From contig NC_134427.1 in NCBI RefSeq assembly GCF_030867145.1, forward strand, positions 11,493,001 through 11,557,000: a stretch of DNA of 64,000 nt, written 5' to 3'. The position numbers and the translations under genes were made by a program. The notes under the pieces are model-generated. The model was not told the origin of the DNA, did no database searches, and worked only from the letters and a program-made list of their open reading frames with translations. This document shows, one piece after another, positions 1 to 37,154 of the stretch. Positions within the stretch are counted from its first letter, which is position 1, and each line of letters begins with the position of its first letter. Source of the stretch: Opisthocomus hoazin. Taxonomy: Eukaryota > Chordata > Aves > Opisthocomiformes > Opisthocomidae.

Positions 1-9
1 GGCACTCAC

Positions 10-5019
<5,010 letters not shown>

Positions 5020-5480: not shown

Positions 5481-5503
5481 TGGCCCCCGCCCCGCTGCCG
5501 CCA

Positions 5504-5727: not shown

Positions 5728-6039
5728 CTGACCTCCCGCGGCCGACCCTCCGTGCTCTCCCCGCTGGAGACACCCGGGGTCTCTCACACCCGGGCTGCCC
5801 CTCAGACACCCGCTCAGCCCCTTGCTCCCAGGCCACGTCATCTGCTCACCGCCTCGTGCTGCTTGATCTTTGCCGGCCATCACACTCGTGCACACACCCG
5901 CGCTCGCTCCAGTCCCTGCCCCAGGAGCACAGGGACCCTCCGCGCCGTGGGCTGAGCCCAGCTGCCGTACTCACAGCCCCGCACACACACACACGTGCAC
6001 GTGGGACCGACAGCCCGCACCCAGGACAGAGCCAAGAAG

Positions 6040-7640
6040 GAATTTAATACGGACACAGGGCAGGCTGCACCGGTCAGGCGCAGGGCACGGCCAGGCAAGC
6101 GCACCGGCAAGGCGCTGGCTGCTGGGCACCCCTGCTCTCACTTTCCCGTGAGGCAGCTGCAGCGGAAAGCCCTGCGCAGAGCCCGACGAGCTGTCCTGAG
6201 GATGGACGACCATCGTTGGCGAGCTGGGGCACGCGGGAGGGCAGCGATGCCTACGAGGGAAGGAGAGCTGTAGGCGAGAGGCTGGGCGGGGACAGGTGCT
6301 CTGTGCCCCTTGTGCCCGGGACCTCCGGCCAGGGGAGAAGCCGCTGCCTCTGTGCCGGCGTCCTCTGATGGGGCGAGGGACGCGCTCTGTGTGTCGCCGT
6401 CTTCCTCTCCTGCAGCGTCTTTGTCAGGGACCTCTTCCCGCTCCTCCTCCGAGTCTCCCAGATCAGCATCAGAGGCTATGGGGCTGACAGGGACAGGAAG
6501 CCCTTGGCTCTCCACCCTTGCTGCCAAGCCCCGGTCGCTCAGGACGCCCTCAGCAGCGCCCACAGATTTGGCACCAGCACCGGCCAGCTGGGGCACGGCT
6601 GCAGGCAGGGGAGGAGCCACTGACTGAGCATCTGGGGGCGCTGGTGCAGGGACAGTCACGCTGTGCCCCTCTTCGCAGGGAGCTCCAGGAGAGGGACCAG
6701 TTGCAAAGCTGGTGTCCTCAGGCATTGCTGCGGGGAGAGGCTCGCTGCGTCCCTGGGCCCTCCAGCCAGGCAAGACTCTGCTGCTGGCACTGCATCTTCA
6801 TCTGCTAATGGGGCAAGAGACGCGCTCTTTATGTCGCTTGCTGCCTCTCCTGCAGCGTCTCTGCCAGGCACCTCTTCCCACTCTTCCTCCAGGTCCTCCA
6901 GAGCAGTGCCACTGGTAAGGGGGCCAAACGCTGGCAGGCCCCTGGCTCTCCACGCCCGCTGCCAAGTCCTGGTCACCCAGGATGCCCTCAGCAGTGCCCG
7001 CAGCATTGGCACTATCATCTGCTGCCTGGAGCACGGCCGCAGGCAAGGGAGGAGCCCACGACTGTCCATCTTCAGGCGCTGATGTGGGCAGAGGCTCGCT
7101 GTGCCCCTGCTCCGCGGGGCCTCCGGCCAGGCAAAAGGCTGCTGGCTCTCTGTCTGAGTGCGCTGGCGGGGCAGGAGATGCGCGCCGAGGGTGGTCGTCT
7201 GCCTCTCCTGCGGTGTCTCTGGCCATGCTGCTGGGTGCTGCCTGCGTGTGGCTCCTGGCTGAGTCTCGCCGGACTAGGGCTGGCCCAGAGGCTATGGATG
7301 GAGATGTCTTCCTCCAGCTGACTCTGCCCCAACAGGCGTTCAGATGTTTTGTGGTCATCCTCTTCTTCCAGCTCCTCCCGACTCTCCATCTTGATGTGTA
7401 CGACCACAAGATGCTTTGGGGCATCTGCAGGCCATGTGCACAGCGGCTTGCCAGGGACAAGTCACAAGGGTGGCAGCCGATGGCCCTGCCGTGCCACCAG
7501 CCGTGCCCTGTGCACTTTGCTGGTGTGTCTCCCTGGGGAAACTGGTGCATGGGCCTTGCCAGCAGTCCTGGTTCCCGCCGGAACATGGAGATGAGGTCCT
7601 GGCTGAGCTGCAGGTGCTTCGCCACCCATGGCGGCCTGCC
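6040..7640 (-). repeat. Tandem acidic-protein repeats, left arm
   Basis: This is the mirror of 35,250-36,845. Degenerate tandem units of about 440 bases read on the minus strand. Each has recognisable blocks: an acidic block (EDLEEEWEEVPGRDAAGE), a SASLAP block, LAGGP, then SEPLP..PED, APPLPAAV and LAA.VESQG. Neighbouring units differ in reading frame. The final unit enters the ORF 6773-6138. The function is unknown. Confidence 0.6.
6138..6773 (-). CDS. Uncharacterised acidic-repeat protein, terminal ORF (left-arm copy)
   Basis: This 211-residue open frame is the left-arm counterpart of 36114-36749 and differs from it by a handful of substitutions (for example GLPVPVSP here against GPPVPVSP there). 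It holds one full acidic repeat unit (LGDSEEEREEVPDKDAAGEE) and a basic, cysteine-containing C-terminus, RALRRAFRCSCLTGK. A poly(A) signal ATTAAA lies on the minus strand near 6048. The first Met of the open frame need not be the real start: the reading probably continues from upstream repeat units or exons. I recognise no domain. It could be the last exon of a lineage-specific gene or a decayed copy of one. Confidence 0.35.
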   Translation of the reverse strand: MPGWRAQGRSEPLPAAMPEDTSFATGPSPGAPCEEGHSVTVPAPAPPDAQSVAPPLPAAVPQLAGAGAKSVGAAEGVLSDRGLAARVESQGLPVPVSPIASDADLGDSEEEREEVPDKDAAGEEDGDTQSASLAPSEDAGTEAAASPLAGGPGHKGHRAPVPAQPLAYSSPSLVGIAALPRAPARQRWSSILRTARRALRRAFRCSCLTGK

Positions 7641-9735
7641 CCTGGGCTATCCTTGCAGGTTCTGCCAGACCAGTGGTGTGCCCAAGGTGTCCAAGCTGCT
7701 GGCCGGGTCCCTGGCTTGAGGCTAGGATGTGACTCAGGTACCCTGATACCAATGACCGGAGTGCTGACTCCAGAGCTGCATTACAGGCTGGGCGGCCGTG
7801 TGGGGCAGGCCCCCACTTCTGAGCACTCCCTGCCATGGCTCGGTCACCAAGGATGCCGCGAGTAGGTGGGACCACCTCTCAGTGGCCGCTGGCTGCAGGG
7901 CCCACAGCATGTGCTCTGCCTCTCGCAGAAGATCTGGAGGTTGCTGCTGCTGGCAGAGTGGGCAGCTTGGTGACATCCGTGGCTCCTGCTGTTGGAGCTG
8001 CAAGTGCATACCGGGCTGCAGCTGCCTGCGCCGCTTCAAGCCTGGGGACAGGCGGCAAGGCTGGCGTGGGCACTCTTTGTCCCCGTGCGGCCCTGCTGCG
8101 GGGTCGTGCCTCCCAGCCCTCCAGCCTGTCCGTCTGCAAGAGAAGACGTGGAGAAAGGCCACGTGGCTGTGGTCCTCTCACCCTCACGTCCCCGGGGCAA
8201 ACCCCCTGCAGCCGGGCTGTCCTGCCAGCCCTGAGGGCACGGCTCAGTGCCGCAGGCGGCTGCTGCCCTGTTCCCAGAGCCGGCTGGGGAGACGGCTGCT
8301 CCATGCGTGGCTGCCCCCCACGCCTCGGGAGCACCCCCGGCATGCCCGTGCAGCCTGCCGGGCACAGCACAGGGGTCTCAGCTTGCTGGGGGGCCGGTCG
8401 CACTGTCCCCTCCAGCGCCTGCCGCCTTCCCATCGGCACCTCCCAGGGCCGGGGAGGCGGTCGGCCCTGCCTCCCCCAAGGTCCTTACCTGTGTGCCACG
8501 GCTGCAAGAGCTCTGTCAGCTGGCCGGGAAGGGGAGCGGTGGCAGCTCGTCCCCGTGGAGGGACGAGGCTGTGGTCCGGCTGCGCTGCCCCTCGGCCTGG
8601 GGCTGCCTGCGGAGCACCTGTGGGGAGGAGGAGGAGGCGCGGGATGGAGGCCGCTGCGTCCGCACAGTGACCCCCGCGGTGCCGGCAAGCCCGGCCCCGG
8701 CTTCAAGGCCGCTCCCGGCCACTACAGCCAGGGTGAGCTCGGCTCTGCGCTGCTCTCTGCCTCCGGGCCATGGCTGCGGGGCTGCGCGGGCCACGACCCT
8801 CCCACAGCCGGCCCTGCGCCGCACAGACCTCTTGCGGCCCAGCATGGCTGCGCCCAGGCCGCAGGTGCTCAGGGCTGGCTGTCTCGCCCCCGGCTGTCCC
8901 TGTGTCCCGCCGCCCGACTGCCCCTCGAGCCCCGTCCCTCGCCTGCCGGCCCTCCTGCAGGCTGCGCAGCCCCTGGCTGGGCTGGCAGTGAGTGTTCGCC
9001 TCCTGCTTCTCGGGCATCTCTGGGGTCCTGTGCTGGGCACCTGCAGCGGGCACCCAGGGGAGATGCTGCCTCCTGACGGAGCCGCTCTCCTGGGACTGGG
9101 CACCCTGCGGCGTCCCCCAGTCCGGCCCCCTCTCTCGCCCCTGGACCCTTCGCTGGACGTTCTCCCAGAGGCACCCCCCGCCTCGCTGACGGGCTGAGCT
9201 GGGGCTGCGCTGAGCCCTCGCAGAGCCGGCTGGCACCGGCCGTGTGTGCCACAGGGCAGCCCCCGCACTCCTCACACAGAGCCCCGGCCCTGCAGCCCCC
9301 CGCACCCAGCTGCCAGCACCAAGTGCACCCAGGCCAAGCGGCCCCTGCAGACCACAGTCCGCTGTCCATTCAGTGACCCTCGGTGTCAGCGCCAGGGCCT
9401 TTCCCCCCAGGAAGGCCACCAGTGACACTCAGTGTACCCGTGTGGGCAAAGTGGACCCCTCCAGCAGCTGGGCTCAGACACTGCGCCTGCCCAGTAGCCG
9501 GCCCCTGGATTCCAGTCTCCCCAGTTGCTGGACCCTGCAGGTGGGAACCCCCAAGGCCGCAGCCCTTGTGCAGCGCCTGGGACAGACTGTCCCACACCCC
9601 CTGAGCCTGGTGCCACAGCTGACCCTCGGCGGGAGGGATCGCTTTGTGGCAGCCGTTTCATGGGAGAGTGGTGAATCTGGTTATCCTTTTCTGCAATCCT
9701 TACAGCAAAGAAAGAAGTTCGTAACACAGCGTACA
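7640..9735. other. GC-rich part of the arm, candidate exons, unidentified (left)
   Basis: This is the mirror of 33,160-35,250. It is GC-rich, low-complexity sequence with long open frames on both strands, most of which are composition artefacts. On the minus strand it contains splice-like pairs described under the right-arm copy. No family is recognised. Confidence 0.4.
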
Positions 9736-9736
9736 G

Positions 9737-12700
9737 ACCCTCTTATTTAGATTGCAACGTTTTTTGCAAGAGTGGTCTTTTACCATCACTGCATCTCCAG
9801 ACCACATACCATGTACTTGCATTCCCACTGGTACTGGCTGAAACCACTGAGCTTCTGCCCTGTTTTCTTGTAGATGTTTTCCTGTCCCCAGTACAAATCA
9901 GGTAACTCACTCGCTTCGTTCCGGTCTCACGCTCTTCTTGCAGACTCCTTATCTCTGTAGTTTGCGCATCTGCTCTCCCAAGGCCGAGCCACCTAAAGGG
10001 ATTATTCAGGAGTCTCTTATCTTACAACCGTCCCCATTCTTCACAAAGAACCAAGACTTCCTTTGGCTGTGCAATGGTTCTGAGGACCTAAAGTGATAAT
10101 TGTTATCTACATCCGCTACATCTGTTACATTTCCTACAGTCACTGGTATCAATTTCAAACTTGCCTGACTACGAGTTTGAGCCATTGCTCTTTGAGAGTC
10201 CCGTTCATTCTTTCCACCTTTCCTGAGGACTGTGGATGATATGGAATACGTAGCTGTTGCTGTATCCCTAAACATTTATAAGTGTTTAATACTCCCCCTG
10301 AAAAAAATGAGAACCCCTATTGGATTCTATGGTTTCAGGTATTCCGTGTCTGGGAATGGTTTCCTGCAGAAGTGCTTTGACCTCTCCCGCAGTACAAGCT
10401 TTCCTGGTGGGAAAAGCTTCTACCCATCCTGAGAGTTGGTCCATGCTTACCAGCAGGTGCTGAAACCTGCTCACAGAAGGCACATTAGCATAACCAATTT
10501 GCAGTCTTTGGAATGGCAAGTATGTCCATGGTTGTTCTCCAGCTTCCTGTTTGGGTTTTGCATCAGAAAACTTTATCTTTCACAGCCTCCCAGCTTTGCC
10601 GAGGAGCCTGTTCTTCCTGAAGTGATGGCTGCGTATATTTGGGCTGGGTTGATTGATGTCTGGCCAGTCATCAGCAGAGGGAGTTGTTACGGTGGTCCAC
10701 TCATGTAGAGGTTGGAGGGCAGCAGTGTTAGCTGCTGTGGGATAGGATAGTAAACATGCTCAAGTGGCTTGCAGCTGGAGTGTAGAAAAATAAATATATC
10801 ATATTGATTGTTGTTTAGTCTTGTGTGCTTGAAAAGTACAACATCTGTGTTTAGATAATAAATGGCAGATGGTAGACTTAGAGGCACCCTATCAGACATG
10901 TGTGAAATTCCTGCCCTGCTATGCACATCAGTGGCACAGTGTAAATTACACCTGTCCAAATCCTGGATAAACCAGCAAAAACAGCAGGGTTGGTGATCCT
11001 TTAGCATGGCCCGAGCTCAGCAGTCCTTGTGTCCCCGCTTGTGTGCCTCCGTCCCAGGTGCTGCTTCGGAGATCCCCCGGTTGGCGAGGTGACGAAAATA
11101 AATTGACTCTTTGCATTTCATCCATGGCTTTGTGGTTGTTCCTGTGTTCTGCCTGTACGGACTCATACAGCTGCTTTATCTGCCAATTCATTATTTCTTT
11201 CGGTTTTGCTGGATCCTTTGGTATGAGCTGGACAGTGTACTGCAGTAGTTTCCCTTGGAAGCTTAATAGCTTCCAACAGCATTCAGATTTCAGTTGCATC
11301 AGAAATACTTTTTCCCACCAAGGTACGGAACCTCGTTCTTTCCATAGCGTACCCATTGCATGACACACTCCAAAAGCAGTATAAATAGTTACCCACTGAT
11401 AACGTCCCCACCAGGCTGCTCTTGCTCATGCAGTTAATTCAGCCCTTGGGCACTCCTTGAGAGTTCTGGACGTTCTGCTTCAAGTACCTCTAAGTTTCTC
11501 ACCACTGCACAGCCCATGTGTCATTCTCCATTCACACATACCACGCCGACCCATTGGTAAAAAGGGATAGATCCGAGTTCTCTAGAGGTTGATCCTGCAG
11601 ATCTTCCCGTAGGTGGCTGGAGAGGAACACTACCTTAGCACAATCACGATGCAGCTCACCATTGGAGCGAACAGGCACTAAAGCTGCTGGATTCAAAACA
11701 TGACATCCTTTTAAAGTAACATTATCTGCATTTAAAATCATTAACTCACAACAATGTGCTCTTGATGGGGACAATACTTGGGTAGCACATTGCTTCAGAA
11801 TCAGTTCCCGCTTCATGCGGGACATACACCATTGTCGGGTGACCCAGGACTAGTAGTGTCCTTCTTTTCATGACAGTCACCGTTGCCGCTACCACTCTAA
11901 CATGGAGATTATTCCCTGCCACTACAGGATCCAGCTGAGTTGAGTAATGAGCCACAGGGTGGTGGTGCGGACATAGCTTTTGAATGAGGACTCCGCTGGC
12001 TACTCCTTGGTTCTAATGCACAAATAGTTCAAAGGACTTGGAGTAATCTGGCAATCCCAGTGATGGAGCAGGAGCTAAAGCTCCTTCCATAGCTTGAAAA
12101 GCCTTTTCTCTCTCTGGACCCCACCGTATACACACCAATTCCTCTGCCTTTGTAGCTTCTGTCCACGGCTTACTTAACTCCCCTGGCCCTGGTATCCAGG
12201 CTCTGCAGTATCCTACTGCACCCAAAAATCCTTGCAATTGCTTCTTTGTTACCAGTCCAGGTATTTCTACAATAGCCTGGACCTGTTCTGGGTCTGCTAA
12301 TCTTTGTCCTTCTTTTAATATCAATCCTAAATATTTTACTTCCTGCTGACACACCTGAAGCTTAGAAAGAGATCCACAGTTATGTTTTCCTGCTAAAGCA
12401 GTACACAGACAAGTAATATCAAGTATAAATAAATAGATTTCCAGCAATCTTCGTACGTCTTGCTGGCAACTAACAAATGATCTACATATTCTACAAGCAC
12501 AGACCTCCAGGTAAGATAATATCTTTCAGTTTTTCTCCTTGCCACCCTGGCATGCGATTGTTAAAATAGTTCTGGATGTCAGAGGCAGCTTGGGCCACAA
12601 ACACACCTGCTGCCACTTCATTATCAAAATTCTGGAGAGTCATTCCCCCAGACCTCAACAAAGCCTGACACGCTCTTCCCCAGTAGTCGCTGGGGTGTTC

Positions 12701-13297
12701 CTATGGCCTCTGTCTACATTCCTGTGCTTTACTTCAATTTACTCTCATCTCCTCCAAAGCTCTAATCACATTTATCAGATTTCTAACCACCGTTTGGCAA
12801 TTCTCGCTATCCGTTTGATTATTATAACCCCAAGTGGGATCACCCTGAGTCCAGGCGGCCCAATTTCGACCTCCCTGTAGCGTTAATTCCACATTCTTTT
12901 GAACTATCTTTCTGTCTGGACAGAACAATTCTCTCAATAACAGATTCGGGAAATTAATTCTGGTGGAATCTTCTTTAAGATAATCACTGAAAGGATTCTT
13001 CATGCCAGCCCTGGGATCCTGGAGCAGCTCGAGCTGTGTGCCTCCATAGAGGGATTCCGAAAAAAGAAACCCCTGAGCAATTCTACCCTTACAATCTAAG
13101 TTGCCCACTCCTCACGTGACGGTTCTGACCAGTAGTAGTCTTAGGGTCCGGGGTCTTCCTGTCCTTCATTGAATCCCTTCACTACCTCCAGGCGGGCCGT
13201 TTCTTCTCTTATCTCTAAGGTTAGCGTGTCAGCTGCTGATGGTAGCGGCCTTCCTTGCTTCCTTACCTTCCAGCTCAAACTGACTCTGGGGCCGCCT
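9737..13297 (-). mobile_element. Broken ERV1 (gamma-like) endogenous retrovirus, left arm
   Basis: This is the mirror copy of 29,590-33,150, read on the minus strand. A gag-like ORF (13108-12734), reverse transcriptase/connection homology (12447-12013), an RNase H-proximal stretch (11825-11532) and integrase homology (10519-10286) lie in gag-pol order. The element is a fossil with many breaks. No LTR pair was recognised. It shares nearly all differences with the right-arm copy, so it inserted and decayed before the arms were duplicated or last homogenised. Confidence 0.75.
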
Positions 13298-14962
13298 TCT
13301 ACTTGGCTAGGTAAAAGTCCAGCATACCCAGGTAAAAGTTCACAGCTTGCAGCCTAAGGGTTCAGCAAACTTAGCTGCTAATGCTAAGCAAGTTACGCTA
13401 AGCAAGCTCAGCATAAGCAGTACAGCAAATCACACAACGGGCTTGCAGTGAGTGGAGAAGATCAGGGCAGTCAGCACCAGAAGCAGAAGAGAGCCAGCTA
13501 GGAGGACCATGTTTTGCAGCTGCACACAGTGGGACCTGTGGCCCAGATTTCTTCGGTGGGAATCCCTGGGAAGCCTGTAAATTCAGATTAGGATGAGAAA
13601 ATAATGGACTAGGTCGGGGGCCTAGAAGATCACGGGGTGCCTCACTGCATTCAGCACCAACAGACGTGCCCATTCAGCACCAACAGATGTCCCTGCTCAG
13701 GTGCTCTCTTCAGCATGCTGCTGCCCATTTCTGTTATGTGCTGGCAACTTTTTCAGAGAGTGGTGCCCGTCTGCCCAGCTGCAATACCTGCATACATCCC
13801 CCATGTCTAGCTCAGGGTGGGGGCTGCGTGCTGGGGGCTCTCCATCCGGCACGGGAGAAGCCGGAATTAGAACCAGCCCTGGCCCACGGCTTCTCTGGCT
13901 GGAGATCAGCATCGAAGCACCTCGCACACATTGGACTGCAAAATAACCTGTTTGGGCTATACTAGAAAGGGGTGGCAGGGATGTGTTTTGTCTTCCTGGA
14001 GTCCCCAGATAGCTGCGTGATCACTGGATCACCCAGCCCAGGCAATCCTGGCAACTGAGCCATGAAAAAGAGTAAGATCTGCGATGCCCGGGAGGATTCG
14101 GCCAGGCAGCCCCGGCCACAGCAGGGCTCTTTGCATGGTGGTGACGAGGCAGGCCATCCCCTGGCCGAGAGGCAGACGGCTTTGTGCTGGTCCAGCCCTT
14201 TCCTGCACAGGTCTGTCTGTGGCTTGGGGGAGGCTGCGATGCATCTCAGATCCGTGTCGCACTGGGAGGAAACAGCGTCCGGTCTCCATTCCCCACAAGA
14301 TAAAGGTCAAGAGATGCTTCCAGTAATGGATGCCAGAGCTTGGCAGCTCTGCCACATCTGCCCACAGCCCCTTCCTTCCCAGTGCTCTCGCTCAGCACAG
14401 CCCCTTCACTGCTTCCTGGGTGGCTGGAGAACATCCAGAGCTGCTCAGGGCTGGTTGGTGAAGGCTGCTCAGTCGCCTGCAGAGATTTCAGCCGTTTCTC
14501 TTTGAAAAGGATGCAGAGGGGGCTCTGGTGCACACAGCTTCTTCTCTGATGTAACCCTGTGTCACTGGACAACTGTGCCACAACACACACCCTGTTTCTG
14601 GAGGCAGGATGAGCCTGAGCATCCACTGGCAGAGGCAGGGACTGTGTCCCAGCTTCACCAAGCAGAGCTGGGTAGCAGCCCTGAGAGAGAAGGCAGCCAG
14701 GACCATACAGAGCAGCCAGTCCTGTACGACTGACCACACCCGCATCTCAGTCAGCTCCTGGGCAGGCTTGTGGTCCTCACCAATTTTGTGTTGCCAAAAC
14801 CCCCTGCTCTTGACTAAACCCCATCAGTCCCTCACCCTGAGAGGTATTTAAGCTTCTGCTAGTCAGGCCCAGCCTGGCGTGCCGTGGTAGCCACGGGCAG
14901 AGGGTGCAGACGTCTGCCCTTGTCCAAGGGCATCAACATGGGGGACTGGGCCAGTTCCTCTG
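13297..14962. other. Unidentified segment between the two retroviral fossils (left)
   Basis: This is the mirror of 27,925-29,590. It has mixed composition and several mid-size open frames on both strands, none of which I recognise. It may include a retroviral LTR or untranslated parts of the ERV1 element (a TATA-like AAGCTTAAATACC context lies near 14,845), but no terminal repeat pair was found. Confidence 0.4.
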
Positions 14963-15369
14963 TGTTATAGTTTGGCTGTGGCCGGCAATAAAAGGGCCAC
15001 GCGGCCGCTCTGCCGTCCCTCCCCCCGCTGGGGTGGGGAAGAGAATGGAAAGAAACAGGCAAAAACTGGTGGGTCGGGATAACGGCAGTTTAACAGAACA
15101 GCAAACAAAGGGAACAGGAACAACAACAACGATACCGATAAGGAGAATACACAACACAAACCACAGAACGCAGAGAGCCGCTCTCACCACCCGCTGCACG
15201 TGCTCCGGAGCCGTGACTGCCTTCCTGCCGCCCAGCTCCCCCCAACCAGAACACAGCATGACAGCACATGGTATGGAACACCCTGCTCTGTTTGGCCAGG
15301 TTGGGTCAGCCCGCCCAGCTGTGTTCCCTCCTGGCGAAAATTAACCCTGTCCTGGCCGAACCCAGGACA
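14963..15369 (-). repeat. ERVL-type LTR, left arm
   Basis: On the minus strand it starts TGTCCTGGGTTCGGCCAGGA and ends ..AACTATAACA, giving the TG..CA termini of an LTR. It is 407 bases long; the right-arm LTR is 414, and this accounts for the whole 7-base length difference between the arms. It is distantly similar to the solo LTR at 45,842-46,406. Confidence 0.8.
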
Positions 15370-18300
15370 TTATCCACCCATTATTCTATACCATCTACGT
15401 CATGCCCAGGTCCCCCATTTCACCGTTGATCACCACCACTTCTCCTGTCTCCAGATATCATTCCCTTAGTCTATGGATCATCACTCGAAAGTGTCCATTG
15501 AGGTCATTTAATCCATGACTTCGGGCTCCATCTGTCGTAATGGTCTTCCATGGCAGGAGAGGTGATGTGTGGCGATGGGCGGTCGCTTGCTGCATCCGGA
15601 GCTCACGGCTGATGTATCTGGTGCGGCCCGTGCCCACAGTCTGCAGGCTGGAGATGTCGATCTTGATGAAGGTGCTGGGTGCCAGTTGTTGAAAACCAGG
15701 TCCAGTCCCATCATCGCTGTGCTCTGCTAGGTTTCATCAGAAAGTCCATCCTTCTTTAGTCTGGGCGATTCTTACTATGATACTACTGATACAACATACA
15801 ACAATTATAGCAGTAATAACACACAGTGACAGGGTTATTTAACAGTTAACTTTATACATTTTATTTCTTGACTATTCTCACCCAAAACCAAATCCCCATG
15901 AGGTACACATTGGACTTCCCCATCCTTCTGCATTACCCACCAGTTACACCCAGGTCCTTGAGCAAAAGCAATCCCGCGGACGGGCTTACCTTTGCCCAAG
16001 GCAGGGCTAACCCAGACTGTCTTCCCTAACATGTTCCGCATGTGCACTACGGGGACTTTATCCCCTTCTGCAGGGTGCTGAGGTTTTCACTGGGCAGAAC
16101 CAGCCCGGTTGGTGGATCCTCTGGTGTTCACCAACCAGGTGGCCTTTGCTAAATGAGTATCCCAATTTTTGAAAGTCCCACCCCCCATTGCTCTCAAGGT
16201 GGTTTTTAGCAGCCCATTGTACCGTTTGATTTTTCCAGAGGCTGGTGCATGATAGGGGATGTGAGTCCCATTGTCCGACTCGGTCCTTTCGGGAGTGCCA
16301 TGTCGCCACAGGACTTGCTTTTCAAGGCGCAGGAGTCCAAGTCTCCACTCTCCAGTAGATTTTCTCACTGGCCATATGCGACTATTAAAGGCTGAGCGAG
16401 TTTTGCTGATCACTCCTTGACTCTCCAGTTGACGGATCAGCTGATGAATGGGGAGAAGGGAGTCTCGGTTGGTACGATACTGTCGCCGGTGCACCGTTGT
16501 GGTCGCGATTGGCACCTGTTGTTCTTCAACCCTCAGCAACCCCACAACGGAAGGATCCTCCAAGAGACCAGGCAAAATAGACAGCTCTTTGATTTCTTCT
16601 GTCTCCAAAGCAGCTATGCCAAAAGCCCACCGATACCCCCTTGCGTCCTTGAAATACCCTCTCCTGAGATAGTCTATCCCAAGGAAGCACGGAGCCTCGG
16701 GGCCGGTTACAATGGGGTGCCACTCCTGCCCAGTGAGGCTCACTTCAGCCTCCAATACACTCAGCTCTTGGGACCCCCCTGTCACTCCAGAAATGCAAAT
16801 GGACTCTGACCCTTTGAAATCTGATGGCATTAAAGTACACTGGGCACCGGTGTCCACTAGAGCTTTATACTCTTGTCGATCTGACGTGCCAGGCGATCAA
16901 ATCCACACCGTCCAATAAATGCGGTTGTCCCTTTCCTCCACCTGGCTGGAGGCAGGGCCCCTCTAATCCTGGTCAGAGAATTTGCTGCTCACCTGCTGTA
17001 AAAATGACTTGGAGGTCCCTCCAGAGGATCAGAATCAAGATCAAACTGTCTACCTGGTCTGGAGAGCTGACTGCTGGAAAGCGGAACGGCATTTTTCCTA
17101 GCAGAATCCCCTTTTGTGCTTGTTTTACCTTGCAGCTCACGCACTCCTGCCTCTAGGGTTGAGGTAGGTTTTCCATCCCACTTCGTCATGTCCTCTCCGT
17201 GGTCACGCAGGTAGAACCACAGGGTGCCCTGTGGTGTGTAGCCTCTGTATCCTCTCTCCTGAGCAGAGGAACGCTTGCCCCTAATAGCTGAGATGCTGGC
17301 TCAAACAGGTGGGGAGTAGGACATATGCTCTTTGAATTGCTGGAACTCCTGGGACAGTTTCTTCACAGCTGAGACGAGGGAGGGAGAGAGACTTTCTTCA
17401 TATTGCCAGAGTCAGACAGCCACCTCATCCACTGCTGCTGCCTCTTCACCTCTCCAGTACACTACTGCCAGTGAGTTGGCATACGAGGATGGTGCGCTCC
17501 GCACAAACTTCCTCCACATGGATCGTGTGCACTGGATTTCATCTGGGTCTGGGGGTAACTGCTCATTGTCCGGGTCATAGCAAACCAGCTCCCGCACAGC
17601 TAATTCCCTCAGGTACTGAATACCCCTTTCCATATTGGTCCACTTGCCAGGATAACATACAACATCCTCACTGAAGGGGTACCTCTCCCTCACGCCTGAC
17701 GGAAGTCTCCTCCAGAGGCTGAGGACTTGTGCCTTTTTTCCAATGGCCTTGGCAATGCCCCCTTCCCTGGCCAGGGATCCCAGCTGCTTGGCTTCCTTGC
17801 CCTCTAACTCCAAGCTGCTGGCCCCGTTATCCCAGCACCGCAGCAGCCAGGTGACAATGTGTTCGCCAGGGTGGCAGCTGAAATCTTTCCGCATGTCTCG
17901 CAGCTCGCTCAGGGACAGGGTGATGATCTCTATCTCCTGCGATGACCCTGGCTCATTGTCATCCCTCCCAGAGCGATCCGATTTCTTTGCATCTTTCTTT
18001 AGTTTTACAGGAGCAACTGCTGCCGGCACAGGTTGGTTTTGGGGCTCAGCTGCAGTCCCTGCTGCCGGAGCTGGAGCAGCCGCCATGCCCGCCGGGGAAG
18101 CCGGGGCAGCCCCATTAGTTGCAGCAGCAGCAGTGGCGGTGCCGGGTGGGGGGGCTGTGACTGCTTGCTGGGCTGGAGCAGCTGCAGGGCCGGCTGGGGG
18201 GGCAGCGCCAGTCGCAGTGCCTGCCGCTTCATTTCCCCCCACCTTTTCCCCTTTAGAGCCCTGAATCATGTTGAAAAGGGCTCGGTAGGTGTGGGCCAGA

Positions 18301-18560
18301 CCCCAGCACGTGGTGGTGATTTGTGTCTCTCTGGAGTTCCCAGGGTGGCGGCACACTTTTTGCAGATATTTTACTAGTTTGTCGGGATTCTGCACTTGCT
18401 CAGGGGTGAGTTTCAAAAACACCGGGGGTGCCCACTGCCCTAGATACTTACCCATGCTATCCCACACCCCCAGCCACTCTCGCACGTGCCCCAGATGATA
18501 CCCTCCTACCAACAGTCTTCCTCTCCACAAAGCCCAGCCAGTTCTTTAAGAACAGTCTGG
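14963..18560 (-). mobile_element. Broken ERVL-type endogenous retrovirus with one LTR, left arm
   Basis: This is the mirror copy of 24,320-27,924, on the minus strand. It consists of a gag ORF (18530-17412), a pol-derived ORF with a retroviral protease motif and remnants of later pol (16857-16087), spacer, and a 3' LTR (15369-14963). No 5' LTR is visible: the element begins abruptly about 270 bases after the F8A stop codon. It is incomplete and broken in several places. Confidence 0.8.
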
Positions 18561-18829
18561 TTCTACCTCAAATGGGCCCTTTCGCTTTGGGATGACACTT
18601 TTTGAGCACGGCAACTTTCAAGACGCACAGCGCGTAGTTTACTACACCGCCAGATAAATGAGGAGATGCACACATTCGCTCAGCAATTATTACTGGCTTC
18701 TGTTACAGAATTCAGACCACAAAGAAGTACCAGACTAGAGGATGCGCTGACACAGGCTGTGGCTTCAACAACAAGTCCCCGCCCGGCCCAGTGGAAGCAC
18801 GCCCAGGCCCCTCCATGCCGGCGCAGCGC

Positions 18830-24050: not shown

Positions 24051-24319
24051 GCGCTGCGCCGGCATGGAGGGGCCTGGGCGTGCTTCCACTGGGCCGGGCG
24101 GGGACTTGTTGTTGAAGCCACAGCCTGTGTCAGCGCATCCTCTAGTCTGGTACTTCTTTGTGGTCTGAATTCTGTAACAGAAGCCAGTAATAATTGCTGA
24201 GCGAATGTGTGCATCTCCTCATTTATCTGGCGGTGTAGTAAACTACGCGCTGTGCGTCTTGAAAGTTGCCGTGCTCAAAAAGTGTCATCCCAAAGCGAAA
24301 GGGCCCATTTGAGGTAGAA
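24051..24319 (+). other. F8A 3' flank up to the retroviral remnant (right arm)
   Basis: The 270 bases after the F8A stop contain no AATAAA; a weak AATAAT lies near 24,189. The ERVL fossil begins directly afterwards. The F8A transcript may therefore end at a non-canonical site or inside the retroviral remnant. The left arm is the mirror image (18,561-18,829). Confidence 0.5.
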
Positions 24320-27300: not shown

Positions 27301-27924
27301 CCCATCGCCACACATCACCTCTCCTGCCATGGAAGACCATTACGACAGATGGAGCCCGAAGTCATGGATTAAATGACCTCAATGGACACTTTCGAGTGAT
27401 GATCCATAGACTAAGGGAATGATATCTGGAGACAGGAGAAGTGGTGGTGATCAACGGTGAAATGGGGGACCTGGGCATGACGTAGATGGTATAGAATAAT
27501 GGGTGGATAATGTCCTGGGTTCGGCCAGGACAGGGTTAATTTTCACCAGGAGCCAGGAGGGAACACAGCTGGGCGGGCTGACCCAACCTGGCCAAACAGA
27601 GCAGGGTGTTCCATACCATGTGCTGTCATGCTGTGTTCTGGTTGGGGGGAGCTGGGCGGCAGGAAGGCAGTCACGGCTCCGGAGCACGTGCAGCGGGTGG
27701 TGAGAGCGGCTCTCTGCGTTCTGTGGTTTGTGTTGTGTATTCTCCTTATCGGTATCGTTGTTGTTGTTCCTGTTCCCTTTGTTTGCTGTTCTGTTAAACT
27801 GCCGTTATCCCGACCCACCAGTTTTTGCCTGTTTCTTTCCATTCTCTTCCCCACCCCAGCGGGGGGAGGGACGGCAGAGCGGCCGCGTGGCCCTTTTATT
27901 GCCGGCCACAGCCAAACTATAACA
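24320..27924 (+). mobile_element. Broken ERVL-type endogenous retrovirus with one LTR, right arm
   Basis: A gag ORF at 24350-25468 (372 residues) has the avian ERVL-like capsid region (VTWLLRCWDNGASSLELEG, LREMAVRELV-like block, FVRSAPSSYANSLAVVYW) and a Pro/Ala-rich linker. A further gag-derived stretch follows at 25.5-25.9 kb. A pol-derived ORF at 26023-26793 opens with the protease motif DTGAQCTL and contains remnants of later pol domains. A 3' LTR (27511-27924) ends the element. No 5' LTR was found. It is a fossil, incomplete and broken in several places. Its family is inferred from gag/pol resemblance and LTR ends. Confidence 0.8.
27511..27924 (+). repeat. ERVL-type LTR, right arm
   Basis: Begins TGTCCTGGGTTCGGCCAGGA, preceded by a purine-rich stretch, and ends CAAACTATAACA. 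It is 414 bases long. A TTTATTG/AATAAA-containing R-like part is visible near the end. It shares the general plan of the 45.8 kb solo LTR but with clearly lower identity. Confidence 0.8.
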
Positions 27925-29590
27925 CAGAGGAACTGGCCCAGTCCCCCATGTTGATGCCCTTGGACAAGGGCAGACGTCTGCACCCTCTGCCCGTGGCTAC
28001 CACGGCACGCCAGGCTGGGCCTGACTAGCAGAAGCTTAAATACCTCTCAGGGTGAGGGACTGATGGGGTTTAGTCAAGAGCAGGGGGTTTTGGCAACACA
28101 AAATTGGTGAGGACCACAAGCCTGCCCAGGAGCTGACTGAGATGCGGGTGTGGTCAGTCGTACAGGACTGGCTGCTCTGTATGGTCCTGGCTGCCTTCTC
28201 TCTCAGGGCTGCTACCCAGCTCTGCTTGGTGAAGCTGGGACACAGTCCCTGCCTCTGCCAGTGGATGCTCAGGCTCATCCTGCCTCCAGAAACAGGGTGT
28301 GTGTTGTGGCACAGTTGTCCAGTGACACAGGGTTACATCAGAGAAGAAGCTGTGTGCACCAGAGCCCCCTCTGCATCCTTTTCAAAGAGAAACGGCTGAA
28401 ATCTCTGCAGGCGACTGAGCAGCCTTCACCAACCAGCCCTGAGCAGCTCTGGATGTTCTCCAGCCACCCAGGAAGCAGTGAAGGGGCTGTGCTGAGCGAG
28501 AGCACTGGGAAGGAAGGGGCTGTGGGCAGATGTGGCAGAGCTGCCAAGCTCTGGCATCCATTACTGGAAGCATCTCTTGACCTTTATCTTGTGGGGAATG
28601 GAGACCGGACGCTGTTTCCTCCCAGTGCGACACGGATCTGAGATGCATCGCAGCCTCCCCCAAGCCACAGACAGACCTGTGCAGGAAAGGGCTGGACCAG
28701 CACAAAGCCGTCTGCCTCTCGGCCAGGGGATGGCCTGCCTCGTCACCACCCTGCAAAGAGCCCTGCTGTGGCCGGGGCTGCCTGGCCGAATCCTCCCGGG
28801 CATCGCAGATCTTACTCTTTTTCATGGCTCAGTCGCCAGGATTGCCTGGGCTGGGTGATCCAGTGATCACGCAGCTATCTGGTGACTCCAGGAAGACAAA
28901 ACACATCCCTGCCACCCCTTTCTAGTATAGCCCAAACAGGTTATTTTGCAGTCCAATGTGTGCGAGGTGCTTCGATGCTGATCTCCAGCCAGAGAAGCCG
29001 TGGGCCAGGGCTGGTTCTAATTCCGGCTTCTCCCGTGCCGGATGGAGAGCCCCCAGCATGCAGCCCCCACCCTGAGCTAGACATGGGGGATGTATGCAGG
29101 TATTGCAGCTGGGCAGACGGGCACCACTCTCTGAAAAAGTTGCCAGCACATAACAGAAATGGGCAGCAGCATGCTGAAGAGAGCACCTGAGCAGGGACAT
29201 CTGTTGGTGCTGAATGGGCACGTCTGTTGGTGCTGAATGCAGTGAGGCACCCCGTGATCTTCTAGGCCCCCGACCTAGTCCATTGTTTTCTCATCCTAAT
29301 CTGAATTTACAGGCTCCCCAGGGATTCCCACCGAAGAAATCTGGGCCACAGGTCCCACTGTGTGCAGCTGCAAAACATGGTCCTCCTAGCTGGCTCTCTT
29401 CTGCTTCTGGTGCTGACTGCCCTGATCTTCTCCACTCACTGCAAGCCCGTTGTGTGATTTGCTGTACTGCTTATGCTGAGCTTGCTTAGCGTAACTTGCT
29501 TAGCATTAGCAGCTAAGTTTGCTGAACCCTTAGGCTGCAAGCTGTGAACTTTTACCTGGGTATGCTGGACTTTTACCTAGCCAAGTAGAA
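27925..29590. other. Unidentified segment between the two retroviral fossils (right)
   Basis: Mirror of 13,297-14,962. The longest open frame is 163 codons (28150-28641 +), with no recognised similarity and competing frames on both strands. It is possibly derived from untranslated or terminal parts of the ERV1 element, or an older unique insert. Confidence 0.4.
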
Positions 29591-32500
29591 GGCGGCCCCA
29601 GAGTCAGTTTGAGCTGGAAGATAAGGAAGCAAGGAAGGCCGCTACCATCAGCAGCTGACACGCTAACCTTAGAGATAAGAGAAGAAACGGCCCGCCTGGA
29701 GGTAGTGAAGGGATTCAATGAAGGACAGGAAGACCCCGGACCCTAAGACTACTACTGGTCAGAACCGTCACGTGAGGAGTGGGCAACTTAGATTGTAAGG
29801 GTAGAATTGCTCAGGGGTTTCTTTTTTCGGAATCCCTCTATGGAGGCACACAGCTCGAGCTGCTCCAGGATCCCAGGGTTGGCATGAAGAATCCTTTCAG
29901 TGATTATCTTAAAGAAGATTCCACCAGAATTAATTTCCCGAATCTGTTATTGAGAGAATTGTTCTGTCCAGACAGAAAGATAGTTCAAAAGAATATGGAA
30001 TTAACGCTACAGGGAGGTCGAAATTGGGCCGCCTGGACTCAGGGTGATCCCACTTGGGGTTATAATAATCGAACGGATAGCGAGAATTGCCAAACGGTGG
30101 TTAGAAATCTGATAAATGTGATTAGAGCTTTGGAGGAGATGAGAGTAAATTGAAGTAAAGCACAGGAATGTAGACAGAGGCCATAGGAACACCCCAGCGA
30201 CTACTGGGGAAGAGCGTGTCAGGCTTTGTTGAGGTCTGGGGGAATGACTCTCCAGAATTTTGATAATGAAGTGGCAGCAGGTGTGTTTGTGGCCCAAGCT
30301 GCCTTTGACATCCAGAACTATTTTAACAATCGCATGCCAGGGTGGCAAGGAGAAAAACTGAAAGATATTATCTTACCTGGAGGTCTGTGCTTGTAGAATA
30401 TGTAGATCATTTGTTAGTTGCCAGCAAGACGTACGAAGATTGCTGGAAATCTATTTATTTATACTTGATATTACTTGTCTGTGTACTGCTTTAGCAGGAA
30501 AACATAACTGTGGATCTCTTTCTAAGCTTCAGGTGTGTCAGCAGGAAGTAAAATATTTAGGATTGATATTAAAAGAAGGACAAAGATTAGCAGACCCAGA
30601 ACGGGTCCAGGCTATTGTAGAAATACCTGGACTGGTAACAAAGAAGCAATTGCAAGGATTTTTGGGTGCAGTAGGATACTGCAGAGCCTGGATACCAGGG
30701 CCAGGGGAGTTAAGTAAGCCGTGGACAGAAGCTACAAAGGCAGAGGAATTGGTGTGTATACGGTGGGGTCCAGAGAGAGAAAAGGCTTTTCAAGCTATGG
30801 AAGGAGCTTTAGCTCCTGCTCCATCACTGGGATTGCCAGATTACTCCAAGTCCTTTGAACTATTTGTGCATTAGAACCAAGGAGTAGCCAGCGGAGTCCT
30901 CATTCAAAAGCTATGTCCGCACCACCACCCTGTGGCTCATTACTCAACTCAGCTGGATCCTGTAGTGGCAGGGAATAATCTCCATGTTAGAGTGGTAGCG
31001 GCAACGGTGACTGTCATGAAAAGAAGGACACTACTAGTCCTGGGTCACCCGACAATGGTGTATGTCCCGCATGAAGCGGGAACTGATTCTGAAGCAATGT
31101 GCTACCCAAGTATTGTCCCCATCAAGAGCACATTGTTGTGAGTTAATGATTTTAAATGCAGATAATGTTACTTTAAAAGGATGTCATGTTTTGAATCCAG
31201 CAGCTTTAGTGCCTGTTCGCTCCAATGGTGAGCTGCATCGTGATTGTGCTAAGGTAGTGTTCCTCTCCAGCCACCTACGGGAAGATCTGCAGGATCAACC
31301 TCTAGAGAACTCGGATCTATCCCTTTTTACCAATGGGTCGGCGTGGTATGTGTGAATGGAGAATGACACATGGGCTGTGCAGTGGTGAGAAACTTAGAGG
31401 TACTTGAAGCAGAACGTCCAGAACTCTCAAGGAGTGCCCAAGGGCTGAATTAACTGCATGAGCAAGAGCAGCCTGGTGGGGACGTTATCAGTGGGTAACT
31501 ATTTATACTGCTTTTGGAGTGTGTCATGCAATGGGTACGCTATGGAAAGAACGAGGTTCCGTACCTTGGTGGGAAAAAGTATTTCTGATGCAACTGAAAT
31601 CTGAATGCTGTTGGAAGCTATTAAGCTTCCAAGGGAAACTACTGCAGTACACTGTCCAGCTCATACCAAAGGATCCAGCAAAACCGAAAGAAATAATGAA
31701 TTGGCAGATAAAGCAGCTGTATGAGTCCGTACAGGCAGAACACAGGAACAACCACAAAGCCATGGATGAAATGCAAAGAGTCAATTTATTTTCGTCACCT
31801 CGCCAACCGGGGGATCTCCGAAGCAGCACCTGGGACGGAGGCACACAAGCGGGGACACAAGGACTGCTGAGCTCGGGCCATGCTAAAGGATCACCAACCC
31901 TGCTGTTTTTGCTGGTTTATCCAGGATTTGGACAGGTGTAATTTACACTGTGCCACTGATGTGCATAGCAGGGCAGGAATTTCACACATGTCTGATAGGG
32001 TGCCTCTAAGTCTACCATCTGCCATTTATTATCTAAACACAGATGTTGTACTTTTCAAGCACACAAGACTAAACAACAATCAATATGATATATTTATTTT
32101 TCTACACTCCAGCTGCAAGCCACTTGAGCATGTTTACTATCCTATCCCACAGCAGCTAACACTGCTGCCCTCCAACCTCTACATGAGTGGACCACCGTAA
32201 CAACTCCCTCTGCTGATGACTGGCCAGACATCAATCAACCCAGCCCAAATATACGCAGCCATCACTTCAGGAAGAACAGGCTCCTCGGCAAAGCTGGGAG
32301 GCTGTGAAAGATAAAGTTTTCTGATGCAAAACCCAAACAGGAAGCTGGAGAACAACCATGGACATACTTGCCATTCCAAAGACTGCAAATTGGTTATGCT
32401 AATGTGCCTTCTGTGAGCAGGTTTCAGCACCTGCTGGTAAGCATGGACCAACTCTCAGGATGGGTAGAAGCTTTTCCCACCAGGAAAGCTTGTACTGCGG

Positions 32501-33150
32501 GAGAGGTCAAAGCACTTCTGCAGGAAACCATTCCCAGACACGGAATACCTGAAACCATAGAATCCAATAGGGGTTCTCATTTTTTTCAGGGGGAGTATTA
32601 AACACTTATAAATGTTTAGGGATACAGCAACAGCTACGTATTCCATATCATCCACAGTCCTCAGGAAAGGTGGAAAGAATGAACGGGACTCTCAAAGAGC
32701 AATGGCTCAAACTCGTAGTCAGGCAAGTTTGAAATTGATACCAGTGACTGTAGGAAATGTAACAGATGTAGCGGATGTAGATAACAATTATCACTTTAGG
32801 TCCTCAGAACCATTGCACAGCCAAAGGAAGTCTTGGTTCTTTGTGAAGAATGGGGACGGTTGTAAGATAAGAGACTCCTGAATAATCCCTTTAGGTGGCT
32901 CGGCCTTGGGAGAGCAGATGCGCAAACTACAGAGATAAGGAGTCTGCAAGAAGAGCGTGAGACCGGAACGAAGCGAGTGAGTTACCTGATTTGTACTGGG
33001 GACAGGAAAACATCTACAAGAAAACAGGGCAGAAGCTCAGTGGTTTCAGCCAGTACCAGTGGGAATGCAAGTACATGGTATGTGGTCTGGAGATGCAGTG
33101 ATGGTAAAAGACCACTCTTGCAAAAAACGTTGCAATCTAAATAAGAGGGT
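29590..33150 (+). mobile_element. Broken ERV1 (gamma-like) endogenous retrovirus, right arm
   Basis: A gag-like ORF lies at 29779-30153. Reverse transcriptase thumb/connection homology at 30440-30874 shows the gamma-retroviral signature YLGLILKEGQRLADPE, then GFLGAVGYCRAWIPG and LGLPDYSKSFELF. Connection/RNase H-proximal homology lies at 30932-31355, and an integrase core fragment at 32368-32601 (SGWVEAFPTRKA, RHGIPETIESNRGSHF). The order gag-pol is preserved; env was not recognised. The element is old and has many breaks. The ends are approximate because no LTR pair was found. Confidence 0.75.
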
Positions 33151-33159
33151 CTGTACGCT

Positions 33160-35250
33160 GTGTTACGAACTTCTTTCTTTGCTGTAAGGATTGCAGAAAA
33201 GGATAACCAGATTCACCACTCTCCCATGAAACGGCTGCCACAAAGCGATCCCTCCCGCCGAGGGTCAGCTGTGGCACCAGGCTCAGGGGGTGTGGGACAG
33301 TCTGTCCCAGGCGCTGCACAAGGGCTGCGGCCTTGGGGGTTCCCACCTGCAGGGTCCAGCAACTGGGGAGACTGGAATCCAGGGGCCGGCTACTGGGCAG
33401 GCGCAGTGTCTGAGCCCAGCTGCTGGAGGGGTCCACTTTGCCCACACGGGTACACTGAGTGTCACTGGTGGCCTTCCTGGGGGGAAAGGCCCTGGCGCTG
33501 ACACCGAGGGTCACTGAATGGACAGCGGACTGTGGTCTGCAGGGGCCGCTTGGCCTGGGTGCACTTGGTGCTGGCAGCTGGGTGCGGGGGGCTGCAGGGC
33601 CGGGGCTCTGTGTGAGGAGTGCGGGGGCTGCCCTGTGGCACACACGGCCGGTGCCAGCCGGCTCTGCGAGGGCTCAGCGCAGCCCCAGCTCAGCCCGTCA
33701 GCGAGGCGGGGGGTGCCTCTGGGAGAACGTCCAGCGAAGGGTCCAGGGGCGAGAGAGGGGGCCGGACTGGGGGACGCCGCAGGGTGCCCAGTCCCAGGAG
33801 AGCGGCTCCGTCAGGAGGCAGCATCTCCCCTGGGTGCCCGCTGCAGGTGCCCAGCACAGGACCCCAGAGATGCCCGAGAAGCAGGAGGCGAACACTCACT
33901 GCCAGCCCAGCCAGGGGCTGCGCAGCCTGCAGGAGGGCCGGCAGGCGAGGGACGGGGCTCGAGGGGCAGTCGGGCGGCGGGACACAGGGACAGCCGGGGG
34001 CGAGACAGCCAGCCCTGAGCACCTGCGGCCTGGGCGCAGCCATGCTGGGCCGCAAGAGGTCTGTGCGGCGCAGGGCCGGCTGTGGGAGGGTCGTGGCCCG
34101 CGCAGCCCCGCAGCCATGGCCCGGAGGCAGAGAGCAGCGCAGAGCCGAGCTCACCCTGGCTGTAGTGGCCGGGAGCGGCCTTGAAGCCGGGGCCGGGCTT
34201 GCCGGCACCGCGGGGGTCACTGTGCGGACGCAGCGGCCTCCATCCCGCACCTCCTCCTCCTCCCCACAGGTGCTCCGCAGGCAGCCCCAGGCCGAGGGGC
34301 AGCGCAGCCGGACCACAGCCTCGTCCCTCCACGGGGACGAGCTGCCACCGCTCCCCTTCCCGGCCAGCTGACAGAGCTCTTGCAGCCGTGGCACACAGGT
34401 AAGGACCTTGGGGGAGGCAGGGCCGACCACCTCCCCGGCCCTGGGAGGTGCCGATGGGAAGGCGGCAGGCGCTGGAGGGGACAGTGCGACCGGCCCCCCA
34501 GCAAGCTGAGACCCCTGTGCTGTGCCCGGCAGGCTGCACGGGCATGCCGGGGGTGCTCCCGAGGCGTGGGGGGCAGCCACGCATGGAGCAGCCGTCTCCC
34601 CAGCCGGCTCTGGGAACAGGGCAGCAGCCGCCTGCGGCGCTGAGCCGTGCCCTCAGGGCTGGCAGGACAGCCCGGCTGCAGGGGGTTTGCCCCGGGGACG
34701 TGAGGGTGAGAGGACCACAGCCACGTGGCCTTTCTCCACGTCTTCTCTTGCAGACAGACAGGCTGGAGGGCTGGGAGGCACGACCCCGCAGCAGGGCCGC
34801 ACGGGGACAAAGAGTGCCCACGCCAGCCTTGCCGCCTGTCCCCAGGCTTGAAGCGGCGCAGGCAGCTGCAGCCCGGTATGCACTTGCAGCTCCAACAGCA
34901 GGAGCCACGGATGTCACCAAGCTGCCCACTCTGCCAGCAGCAGCAACCTCCAGATCTTCTGCGAGAGGCAGAGCACATGCTGTGGGCCCTGCAGCCAGCG
35001 GCCACTGAGAGGTGGTCCAACCTACTCGGGGCATCCTTGGTGACCGAGCCATGGCAGGGAGTGCTCAGAGGTGGGGGCCTGCCCCACACGGCCGCCCAGC
35101 CTGTAATGCAGCTCTGGAGTCAGCACTCCGGTCATTGGTATCAGGGTACCTGAGTCACATCCTAGCCTCAAGCCAGGGACCCGGCCAGCAGCTTGGACAC
35201 CTTGGGCACACCACTGGTCTGGCAGAACCTGCAAGGATAGCCCAGGGGCA
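33160..35250 (+). other. GC-rich part of the arm with candidate exons, unidentified (right)
   Basis: GC-rich sequence with splice-like signals on the plus strand. A polypyrimidine acceptor CTCCTCCTCCTCCCCACAG is followed by a possible exon 34270-34398 ending CACACAG|GTAAGG. A second acceptor TCTTCTCTTGCAG precedes a possible exon from 34754. One frame of the latter contains a CPLC motif and a Gln-rich stretch (CPLCQQQQPPDLL) followed by EAEHMLWALQPAATERW. These could be upstream exons of the acidic-repeat gene. I recognise no family and cannot choose a frame with confidence. Confidence 0.35.
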
Positions 35251-36845
35251 GGCCGCCATGGGTGGCGAAGCGCCTGCAGCTCAGCCAGGACCTCATCTCC
35301 ATGTTCCGGCGGGAACCAGGACTGCTGGCAAGGCCCATGCACCAGTTTCCCCAGGGAGACACACCAGCAAAGTGCACAGGGCACGGCTGGTGGCACGGCA
35401 GGGCCATCGGCTGCCACCCTTGTGACTTGTCCCTGGCAAGCCGCTGTGCACATGGCCTGCAGATGCCCCAAAGCATCTTGTGGTCGTGCACATCAAGATG
35501 GAGAGTCGGGAGGAGCTGGAAGAAGAGGATGACCACAAAACATCTGAACGCCTGTTGGGGCAGAGTCAGCTGGAGGAAGACATCTCCATCCATAGCCTCT
35601 GGGCCAGCCCTAGTCCGGCGAGACTCAGCCAGGAGCCACACGCAGGCAGCACCCAGCAGCATGGCCAGAGACACCGCAGGAGAGGCAGACGACCACCCTC
35701 GGCGCGCATCTCCTGCCCCGCCAGCGCACTCAGACAGAGAGCCAGCAGCCTTTTGCCTGGCCGGAGGCCCCGCGGAGCAGGGGCACAGCGAGCCTCTGCC
35801 CACATCAGCGCCTGAAGATGGACAGTCGTGGGCTCCTCCCTTGCCTGCGGCCGTGCTCCAGGCAGCAGATGATAGTGCCAATGCTGCGGGCACTGCTGAG
35901 GGCATCCTGGGTGACCAGGACTTGGCAGCGGGCGTGGAGAGCCAGGGGCCTGCCAGCATTTGGCCCCCTTACCAGTGGCACTGCTCTGGAGGACCTGGAG
36001 GAAGAGTGGGAAGAGGTGCCTGGCAGAGACGCTGCAGGAGAGGCAGCAAGCGACATAAAGAGCGCGTCTCTTGCCCCATTAGCAGATGAAGATGCAGTGC
36101 CAGCAGCAGAGTCTTGCCTGGCTGGAGGGCCCAGGGACGCAGCGAGCCTCTCCCCTCAGCAATGCCTGAGGACACCAGCTTTGCAACTGGTCCCTCTCCT
36201 GGAGCTCCCTGCGAAGAGGGGCACAGCGTGACTGTCCCTGCACCAGCGCCCCCAGATGCTCAGTCAGTGGCTCCTCCCCTGCCTGCAGCCGTGCCCCAGC
36301 TGGCCGGTGCTGGTGCCAAATCTGTGGGCGCTGCTGAGGGCGTCCTGAGAGACCGGGGCTTGGCAGCGAGGGTGGAGAGCCAAGGGCCTCCTGTCCCTGT
36401 CAGCCCCATAGCCTCTGATGCTGATCTGGGAGACTTGGAGGAGGAGCGGGAAGAGGTCCCTGACAAAGACGCTGCAGGAGAGGAAGACGGCGACACACAG
36501 AGCGCGTCCCTCGCCCCATCAGAGGACGCCGGCACAGAGGCAGCGGCTTCTCCCCTGGCCGGAGGTCCCGGGCACGAGGGGCACAGAGCACCTGTCCCCG
36601 CCCAGCCTCTCGCCTACAGCTCTCCTTCCCTCGTAGGCATCGCTGCCCTCCCGCGTGCCCCAGCTCGCCAACGATGGTCGTCCATCCTCAGGACAGCTCG
36701 TCGGGCTCTGCGCAGGGCTTTCCGCTGCAGCTGCCTCACGGGAAAGTGAGAGCAGGGGTGCCCAGCAGCCAGCGCCTTGCCGGTGCGCTTGCCTGGCCGT
36801 GCCCTGCGCCTGACCGGTGCAGCCTGCCCTGTGTCCGTATTAAAT
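35250..36845 (+). repeat. Tandem acidic-protein repeats, right arm
   Basis: At least three degenerate units of about 440 bases read on the plus strand, with blocks in the order acidic (SREELEEEDD; LEDLEEEWEEVPGRDAAGE; LGDLEEEREEVPDKDAAGE), SASLAP-like, LAGGP, (H)SEPLP, PED, APPLPAAV, AEG.L, LAA.VESQG. The coding-like frame changes between units, near 35,950 and near 36,130. These are either boundaries of degenerate repeats or exon edges I cannot resolve. Confidence 0.6.
36114..36749 (+). CDS. Uncharacterised acidic-repeat protein, terminal ORF (right-arm copy)
   Basis: This open frame of 211 residues ends at a stop 90 bases before an ATTAAA poly(A) signal (36839-36844). It contains one full acidic unit and ends with the basic, cysteine-bearing tail RALRRAFRCSCLTGK. 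The tail resembles a membrane-proximal or lipid-modified C-terminus, but that is only a guess. The paired arm keeps the frame open despite several substitutions, which slightly favours coding. The true start is probably upstream. No known domain is recognised, and it might be a decayed gene. Confidence 0.4.
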   Translation: MPGWRAQGRSEPLPSAMPEDTSFATGPSPGAPCEEGHSVTVPAPAPPDAQSVAPPLPAAVPQLAGAGAKSVGAAEGVLRDRGLAARVESQGPPVPVSPIASDADLGDLEEEREEVPDKDAAGEEDGDTQSASLAPSEDAGTEAAASPLAGGPGHEGHRAPVPAQPLAYSSPSLVGIAALPRAPARQRWSSILRTARRALRRAFRCSCLTGK

Positions 36846-37154
36846 TCCTTCTTGGCTCTGTCCTGGGTGCGGGCTGTCGGTCCCACGTGCACGTGTGTGT
36901 GTGTGCGGGGCTGTGAGTACGGCAGCTGGGCTCAGCCCACGGCGCGGAGGGTCCCTGTGCTCCTGGGGCAGGGACTGGAGCGAGCGCGGGTGTGTGCGTG
37001 AGCGTGATGGCCGGCAAAGATCAAGCAGCACGAGGCGGTGAGCAGGTGACGTGGCCTGGGAGCAAGGGGCTGAGCGGGTGTCTGAGGGGCAGCCCGGGTG
37101 TGAGAGACCCCGGGTGTCTCCAGCGGGGAGAGCAGGGAGGGTCGGCCGCCGCAC

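Follow-up and report, generated by a model that had tools for sequence, protein, structure and literature searches.

The window analysed here, 64,000 nucleotides (64 kb) of contig NC_134427.1 from the bird Opisthocomus hoazin (assembly GCF_030867145.1, positions 11,493,001 to 11,557,000), contains a large palindrome with an F8A gene, which codes for the huntingtin partner HAP40, in each arm. The account is based on the letters of the window, on homology and domain matching, and on the literature; papers are cited by PMC number, and coordinates are those of the window, which is free of N. The arms were found by self-BLAST of the window, which at the settings used returned as its sole self-match of 150 bases or more a single inverted pair, 5738-21261 against 37149-21619, aligned over 15,531 columns with 99.71% identity; many short GC-rich self-matches appear under more permissive BLAST. 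The left arm (5738..21261, + strand) is 15,524 bases long, and the right arm (21619..37149, - strand) is its inverted copy of 15,531 bases, such that the two differ by 38 substitutions and one gap of 7 bases. Between them lies a spacer of 357 bases (21262..21618), single copy in the window, with an observed/expected (o/e) CpG ratio of 0.17 and no gene recognised within it. Identity stops abruptly at the outer ends, where only 21 of the final 60 positions outside the two boundaries agree. The palindrome described in the initial annotation, with these arm and spacer lengths, is therefore borne out by self-BLAST. Inverted arms that are more than 99% identical and enclose a unique spacer, the criterion used for gene-converting palindromes, are found at this locus.

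Each arm also carries one full-length, intact F8A gene, as had been claimed. The left copy (18830..19900, -) is an intact single-exon open reading frame (ORF) of 356 codons plus stop, and the right copy (22980..24050, +) is likewise intact and identical to it at 353 of 356 residues; one unbroken 356-codon ORF per arm suggests single-exon coding. Both genes point outward, with starts at a distance of 1,362 bases from the spacer, and their start codons share the same 20 upstream bases. The copies differ by A18P, G227C and L234V, with no synonymous differences. The left protein matches a human HAP40 chain (6x9o_B, E=2.5e-117) and a second human HAP40 chain (E=6.8e-117), with homology over the length of the protein in two stretches, residues 21-230 and 253-389. 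Human residues 231-252 are unaligned and the part that follows aligns poorly, which, as judged by eye, fits a missing proline-rich stretch; such a stretch inside F8A is described as absent outside mammals (PMC7725122). The match to the SNAP/TPR-like family PF14938 (E=0.001) falls under the curated cut-off. A CpG-island-like stretch covers the left gene (18700..20500, GC 0.753, CpG o/e 0.96) and is mirrored in the right arm.

The differences between the arms are clustered. The outermost block (5738-8638) holds 21 substitutions (0.72%) and is followed by a clean block with none (8639-12283), by a second differing block with 12 (12284-14136, 0.65%) and by an inner block with five (14137-21261, 0.07%), which also holds the 7-base indel. 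The ratio of variance to mean is 4.26, a value reached in none of 20,000 uniform draws, and the longest difference-free gap is 3,646 bases (p=0.00125). As extreme an outward skew is seen in 0.1% of circular shifts; the clustering and skew tests were both picked after the list of differences had been inspected. The low divergence extends over non-genic sequence with presumed retroviral relics (10286..18545, -), marked by integrase-core and RNase H matches below the Pfam cut-off (10289-10579 and 12016-12525). The wholly clean block includes the integrase-core relic, and the nearly clean inner block spans relics presumed by eye as well as F8A, so that purifying selection on F8A alone does not account for it. 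Conversion tracts in the human Y palindrome P6 have a mean minimum length of 2,068 bp and reach 9,023 bp, according to PMC3723533, and the clean 3.6-kb block and the nearly clean 7.1-kb block fall within those lengths. In this one genome, the pattern of arm differences would fit homogenisation by gene conversion.

It is probable, then, that the locus is a real inverted duplication, a 31-kb palindrome with an intact HAP40 (F8A) gene in each arm and with arms homogenised by gene conversion, because the arms are so nearly identical, their outer ends are abrupt, and the differences between them are clustered and skewed outward. Low overall divergence would also be seen if the inverted duplication were real but young and conversion were not ongoing, and the blocks could then be due to chance, to polymorphism or to a mutation rate that varies with base composition and CpG content along the arm. 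However, such a duplication does not account for the clustering and outward skew, nor for the kilobase from 8738, which has 60 CpGs and zero differences, nor for an inner arm that is nearly clean across its presumed retroviral relics, and we consider it very unlikely.

The left boundary of the palindrome adds a further part of the history. Just outside the left arm lies a third, truncated piece of F8A (5501..5728, -), in which 5505-5726 corresponds to residues 240-342 of F8A (tblastn E=3e-20; nhmmer E=3.5e-38), and its homology to F8A stops about 10 bases before the arm begins. In the piece, 227 of 255 aligned codon bases (89%) are identical to F8A; its four gaps (21, 24, 33 and 9 bases) all preserve the frame, and its substitutions, distributed 7, 10 and 11 over the three codon positions, show no overall third-position bias. 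A protein identity of 61% would imply an older piece, an age that was rejected given that the figure is mostly due to gaps. The piece adjoins a repeat unit (5385..5480, +) related to units at about 6402-6500 and 6843-6943 in the outer arm. These belong to a degenerate repeat in the outer left arm (6286..7228, with units at 6286-6680, 6730-7119 and 7086-7221) that is mirrored in the right arm. The order in the left flank, a repeat unit and then F8A, is like that of the left arm, compressed and more diverged. An element at 37137..37229 (+) extends over the right boundary by 13 bases, of which 10 are identical; a related sequence lies within the right arm at 33260-33351 (nhmmer E of about 1e-12). 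The region 5379-9430, mirrored in the right arm, is as a whole rich in GC and in degenerate repeats, and long ORFs run through it in several frames; two outer-arm ORFs in it gave no Pfam match at E up to 0.1.

Given the third F8A piece, and given that related repeat units lie inside and outside the left boundary, F8A was likely duplicated at least twice at this locus, with the inverted duplication last. The right arm and its junction may be older than the left, a weak suggestion based on the element that spans the right boundary and on the coincidence of the left boundary with the truncation of F8A. Neither the truncated third piece nor the blockwise, outward-skewed arm differences were part of the initial annotation, which had left the choice between convergent amplification of F8A and a locus that repeatedly attracts inverted duplication. 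Within this lineage, the third piece and the flanking repeat units shift the balance toward the latter.

The proposed sequence of events is as follows. An inverted duplication would have hit a locus where F8A was already duplicated, and the break would have left the truncated piece beside DKC1, while a fold-back or template-switch event would have produced the mirror copy. The arms could then pair across the short spacer and transfer sequence by gene conversion, with the most complete transfer in the F8A-bearing inner 7 kb, such that the two HAP40 genes would evolve in concert. If the arms were to cross over, the inversion would affect the 357-base spacer and arm sequence alone and is predicted to break no gene, unlike the human F8 inversions. 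For human F8A, identity is said to be maintained by gene conversion, and inversion of the spacer has been proposed (PMC3211038, PMC7725122). In humans, an unduplicated spacer is described for 21 of 21 junctions of inverted duplications that were sequenced (PMC3907307).

The age of the palindrome is a separate matter. One F8A is reported in each of chicken and zebra finch (PMC7725122). The palindrome would then be specific to a lineage, unless the assemblies of those two birds missed or collapsed it. As a special case of the converted palindrome, whose probability it shares, the structure could be old and common to many birds, collapsed in other assemblies and under conversion since an early avian ancestor. 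The older duplication at the same place, whose third F8A piece differs at 28 of 255 aligned bases, is in keeping with such an age, and arms of this kind would presumably be collapsed in short-read assemblies; the single F8A of the two other birds stands against it, and we hold it to be doubtful. Among the matches listed from open-licence PMC papers, no title or abstract shown names a bird F8A palindrome.

Several observations weigh against a real palindrome maintained by conversion, and some of them would be expected if the mirror arm were an assembly error, in which a fold-back read was joined in reverse or a single-copy locus had its second haplotype joined in that way. The arms, at 15.5 kb, are near long-read length; their 0.25% difference equals what two haplotypes could show and is plausible as heterozygosity. 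The VGP paper describes false duplications of read length at contig boundaries as well as haplotype false duplications (PMC8081667). The five inner substitutions comprise one transition and four transversions, and the three differences within F8A are all amino-acid-changing transversions, which hints that the inner transversions may be consensus errors in the GC-rich core. Sites bearing on conversion direction and GC bias are split 17 against 16 in an unpolarised count. The 357-bp spacer is below the range of 766-70,466 bp given for human inverted-duplication spacers (PMC3907307). Finally, permissive BLAST joins 5107-5737 to 37150-37739, and the two 800-base flanks score 65.1 when aligned, above all 200 of 200 dinucleotide-block shuffles (mean 46.3, maximum 64.5), as though the arms had once reached further.

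The last of these points was pursued as a candidate, namely that the arms continue in decayed form past their outer ends, and was set aside. Among shuffles that preserve local composition, 22 of 500 and 18 of 500 attain the flank score. Of 40 other GC-rich stretches in the window, 7 score as high, true repeats among them; the controls gave 46.4 with either flank reversed and 56.3 with the opposite strand. The likeness of the flanks is mainly one of composition, with weak old homology beyond the arms possible.

With respect to the assembly, the window has no N, and an error would have to offer a reason for differences that track the geometry of the palindrome and the distance from its centre, which haplotype variation does not. 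The 33 outer differences comprise 26 transitions and 7 transversions, and 17 of the 27 transitions in the whole alignment touch CpG. Because they are transition-rich and involve CpG, the outer differences look like mutation over evolutionary time, which opposes plain read error in the outer arm. An error would also require two misjoins, one at the spacer and one at an outer end, since the left boundary coincides with the F8A truncation and the right flank differs in both sequence and gene content. The pattern of differences thus lowers the odds of the folded-read error raised in the initial annotation, as far as the sequence can tell; a fold-back or haplotype misjoin is unlikely, though it keeps a real share of the probability.

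The converted palindrome is similar in layout to several known systems. The imperfect palindrome of human int22h-2 and int22h-3 at Xq28, with F8A2 and F8A3, likewise has near-identical F8A genes in inverted arms next to a spacer; it has arms of 50 kb and a spacer of 67 kb, as against 15.5 kb and 0.36 kb here, and a third human copy lies inside intron 22 of F8 (PMC3211038). That the hoazin genes lie in an inverted repeat beside DKC1 and not inside F8, as had been proposed, agrees with the window, in which no F8 exon was recognised when ORFs were read by eye, no dedicated F8 search having been run. The hoazin palindrome is flanked by DKC1 and a TRMT2B-like gene, unlike int22h-2 and int22h-3. In multi-copy mammals the int22h repeat carries F8A with H2AFB1 (PMC7725122). 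Four core motifs that we take to mark histone H2A were absent from the six frames of the window, by motif test only. Given its different size and flanks, and with neither an F8 exon recognised nor an H2A motif seen, the hoazin palindrome is not classed as an int22h member despite its similar layout. Gene-bearing palindromes of the mammalian X and Y also have arms more than 99% identical and a unique spacer (PMC8981503, PMC3723533), but they are on sex chromosomes and often hold testis genes, whereas the hoazin locus is likely autosomal. Fold-back inverted duplications in humans share an inverted copy and an unduplicated spacer; those described in patients are large and lie next to chromosome ends or translocations, whereas the hoazin one is interstitial and small (PMC3907307).

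The retroviral relics are probably two endogenous retroviruses per arm, mirrored at about 24335-32601 (+). A gag-like ORF of 372 codons, recognised by eye, starts some 300 bases beyond the F8A stop, and gag- and protease-like open pieces were recognised by eye further into the arm; the gag-like and protease-like ORFs gave no Pfam match at E up to 0.1. No tRNA was found in the window.

The flanks named in the initial annotation stand to different degrees. On the left, DKC1 exons (1..5019, -) are identified by PDB and Pfam matches, with a putative start codon at 5019 assigned by eye. On the right, TRMT2B-like exons (42676..43324, +) are weakly supported: the label comes from what we take to be RNA-methyltransferase motifs, and the Pfam methyltransferase match is under the cut-off. 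The right flank also holds a gene with a DoxX_2 match under the Pfam cut-off, presumably TMEM35A, and CENPI, which is confirmed. Near a CENPI exon, two direct copies of about 280 bases (57698-57980 and 58546-58803, +) are 69% alike. Among the DKC1 exons are three small nucleolar RNAs (-), SNORA36 (852-986), SNORD83 (1394-1469) and SNORD17 (2019-2266); SNORA36 also lies within human DKC1, and SNORD83 and SNORD17 have other human hosts. Human DKC1 is at Xq28, and human TRMT2B, TMEM35A and CENPI are at Xq22. The palindrome may therefore sit where two blocks that are separate in humans adjoin, at the site of an old chromosome rearrangement. The location of chicken F8A (PMC7725122) makes it likely that the locus is autosomal, on the equivalent of chicken chromosome 4.

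The reason that F8A resides in inverted repeats is an unsettled question, in the discussion of which the linked histone gene H2AFB1 has been raised (PMC7725122). About half of patients with severe haemophilia A have an inversion between F8A-bearing repeats (PMC3211038). We suggest, tentatively, that F8A has recurrently become the cargo of large palindromes in unrelated amniotes, on a bird autosome and on the primate X, that conversion keeps the HAP40 pair in step, and that the bird locus saw two or more duplications of F8A in a single place. If true, an F8A palindrome away from F8, and probably away from the sex chromosomes, would separate explanations linked to the X or to H2AFB1 from those linked to F8A or its CpG island. 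The level of HAP40 depends on huntingtin (PMC8654980), and thus two genes need not double the protein. A lineage that keeps two copies of F8A would be a natural test of HAP40 dosage.

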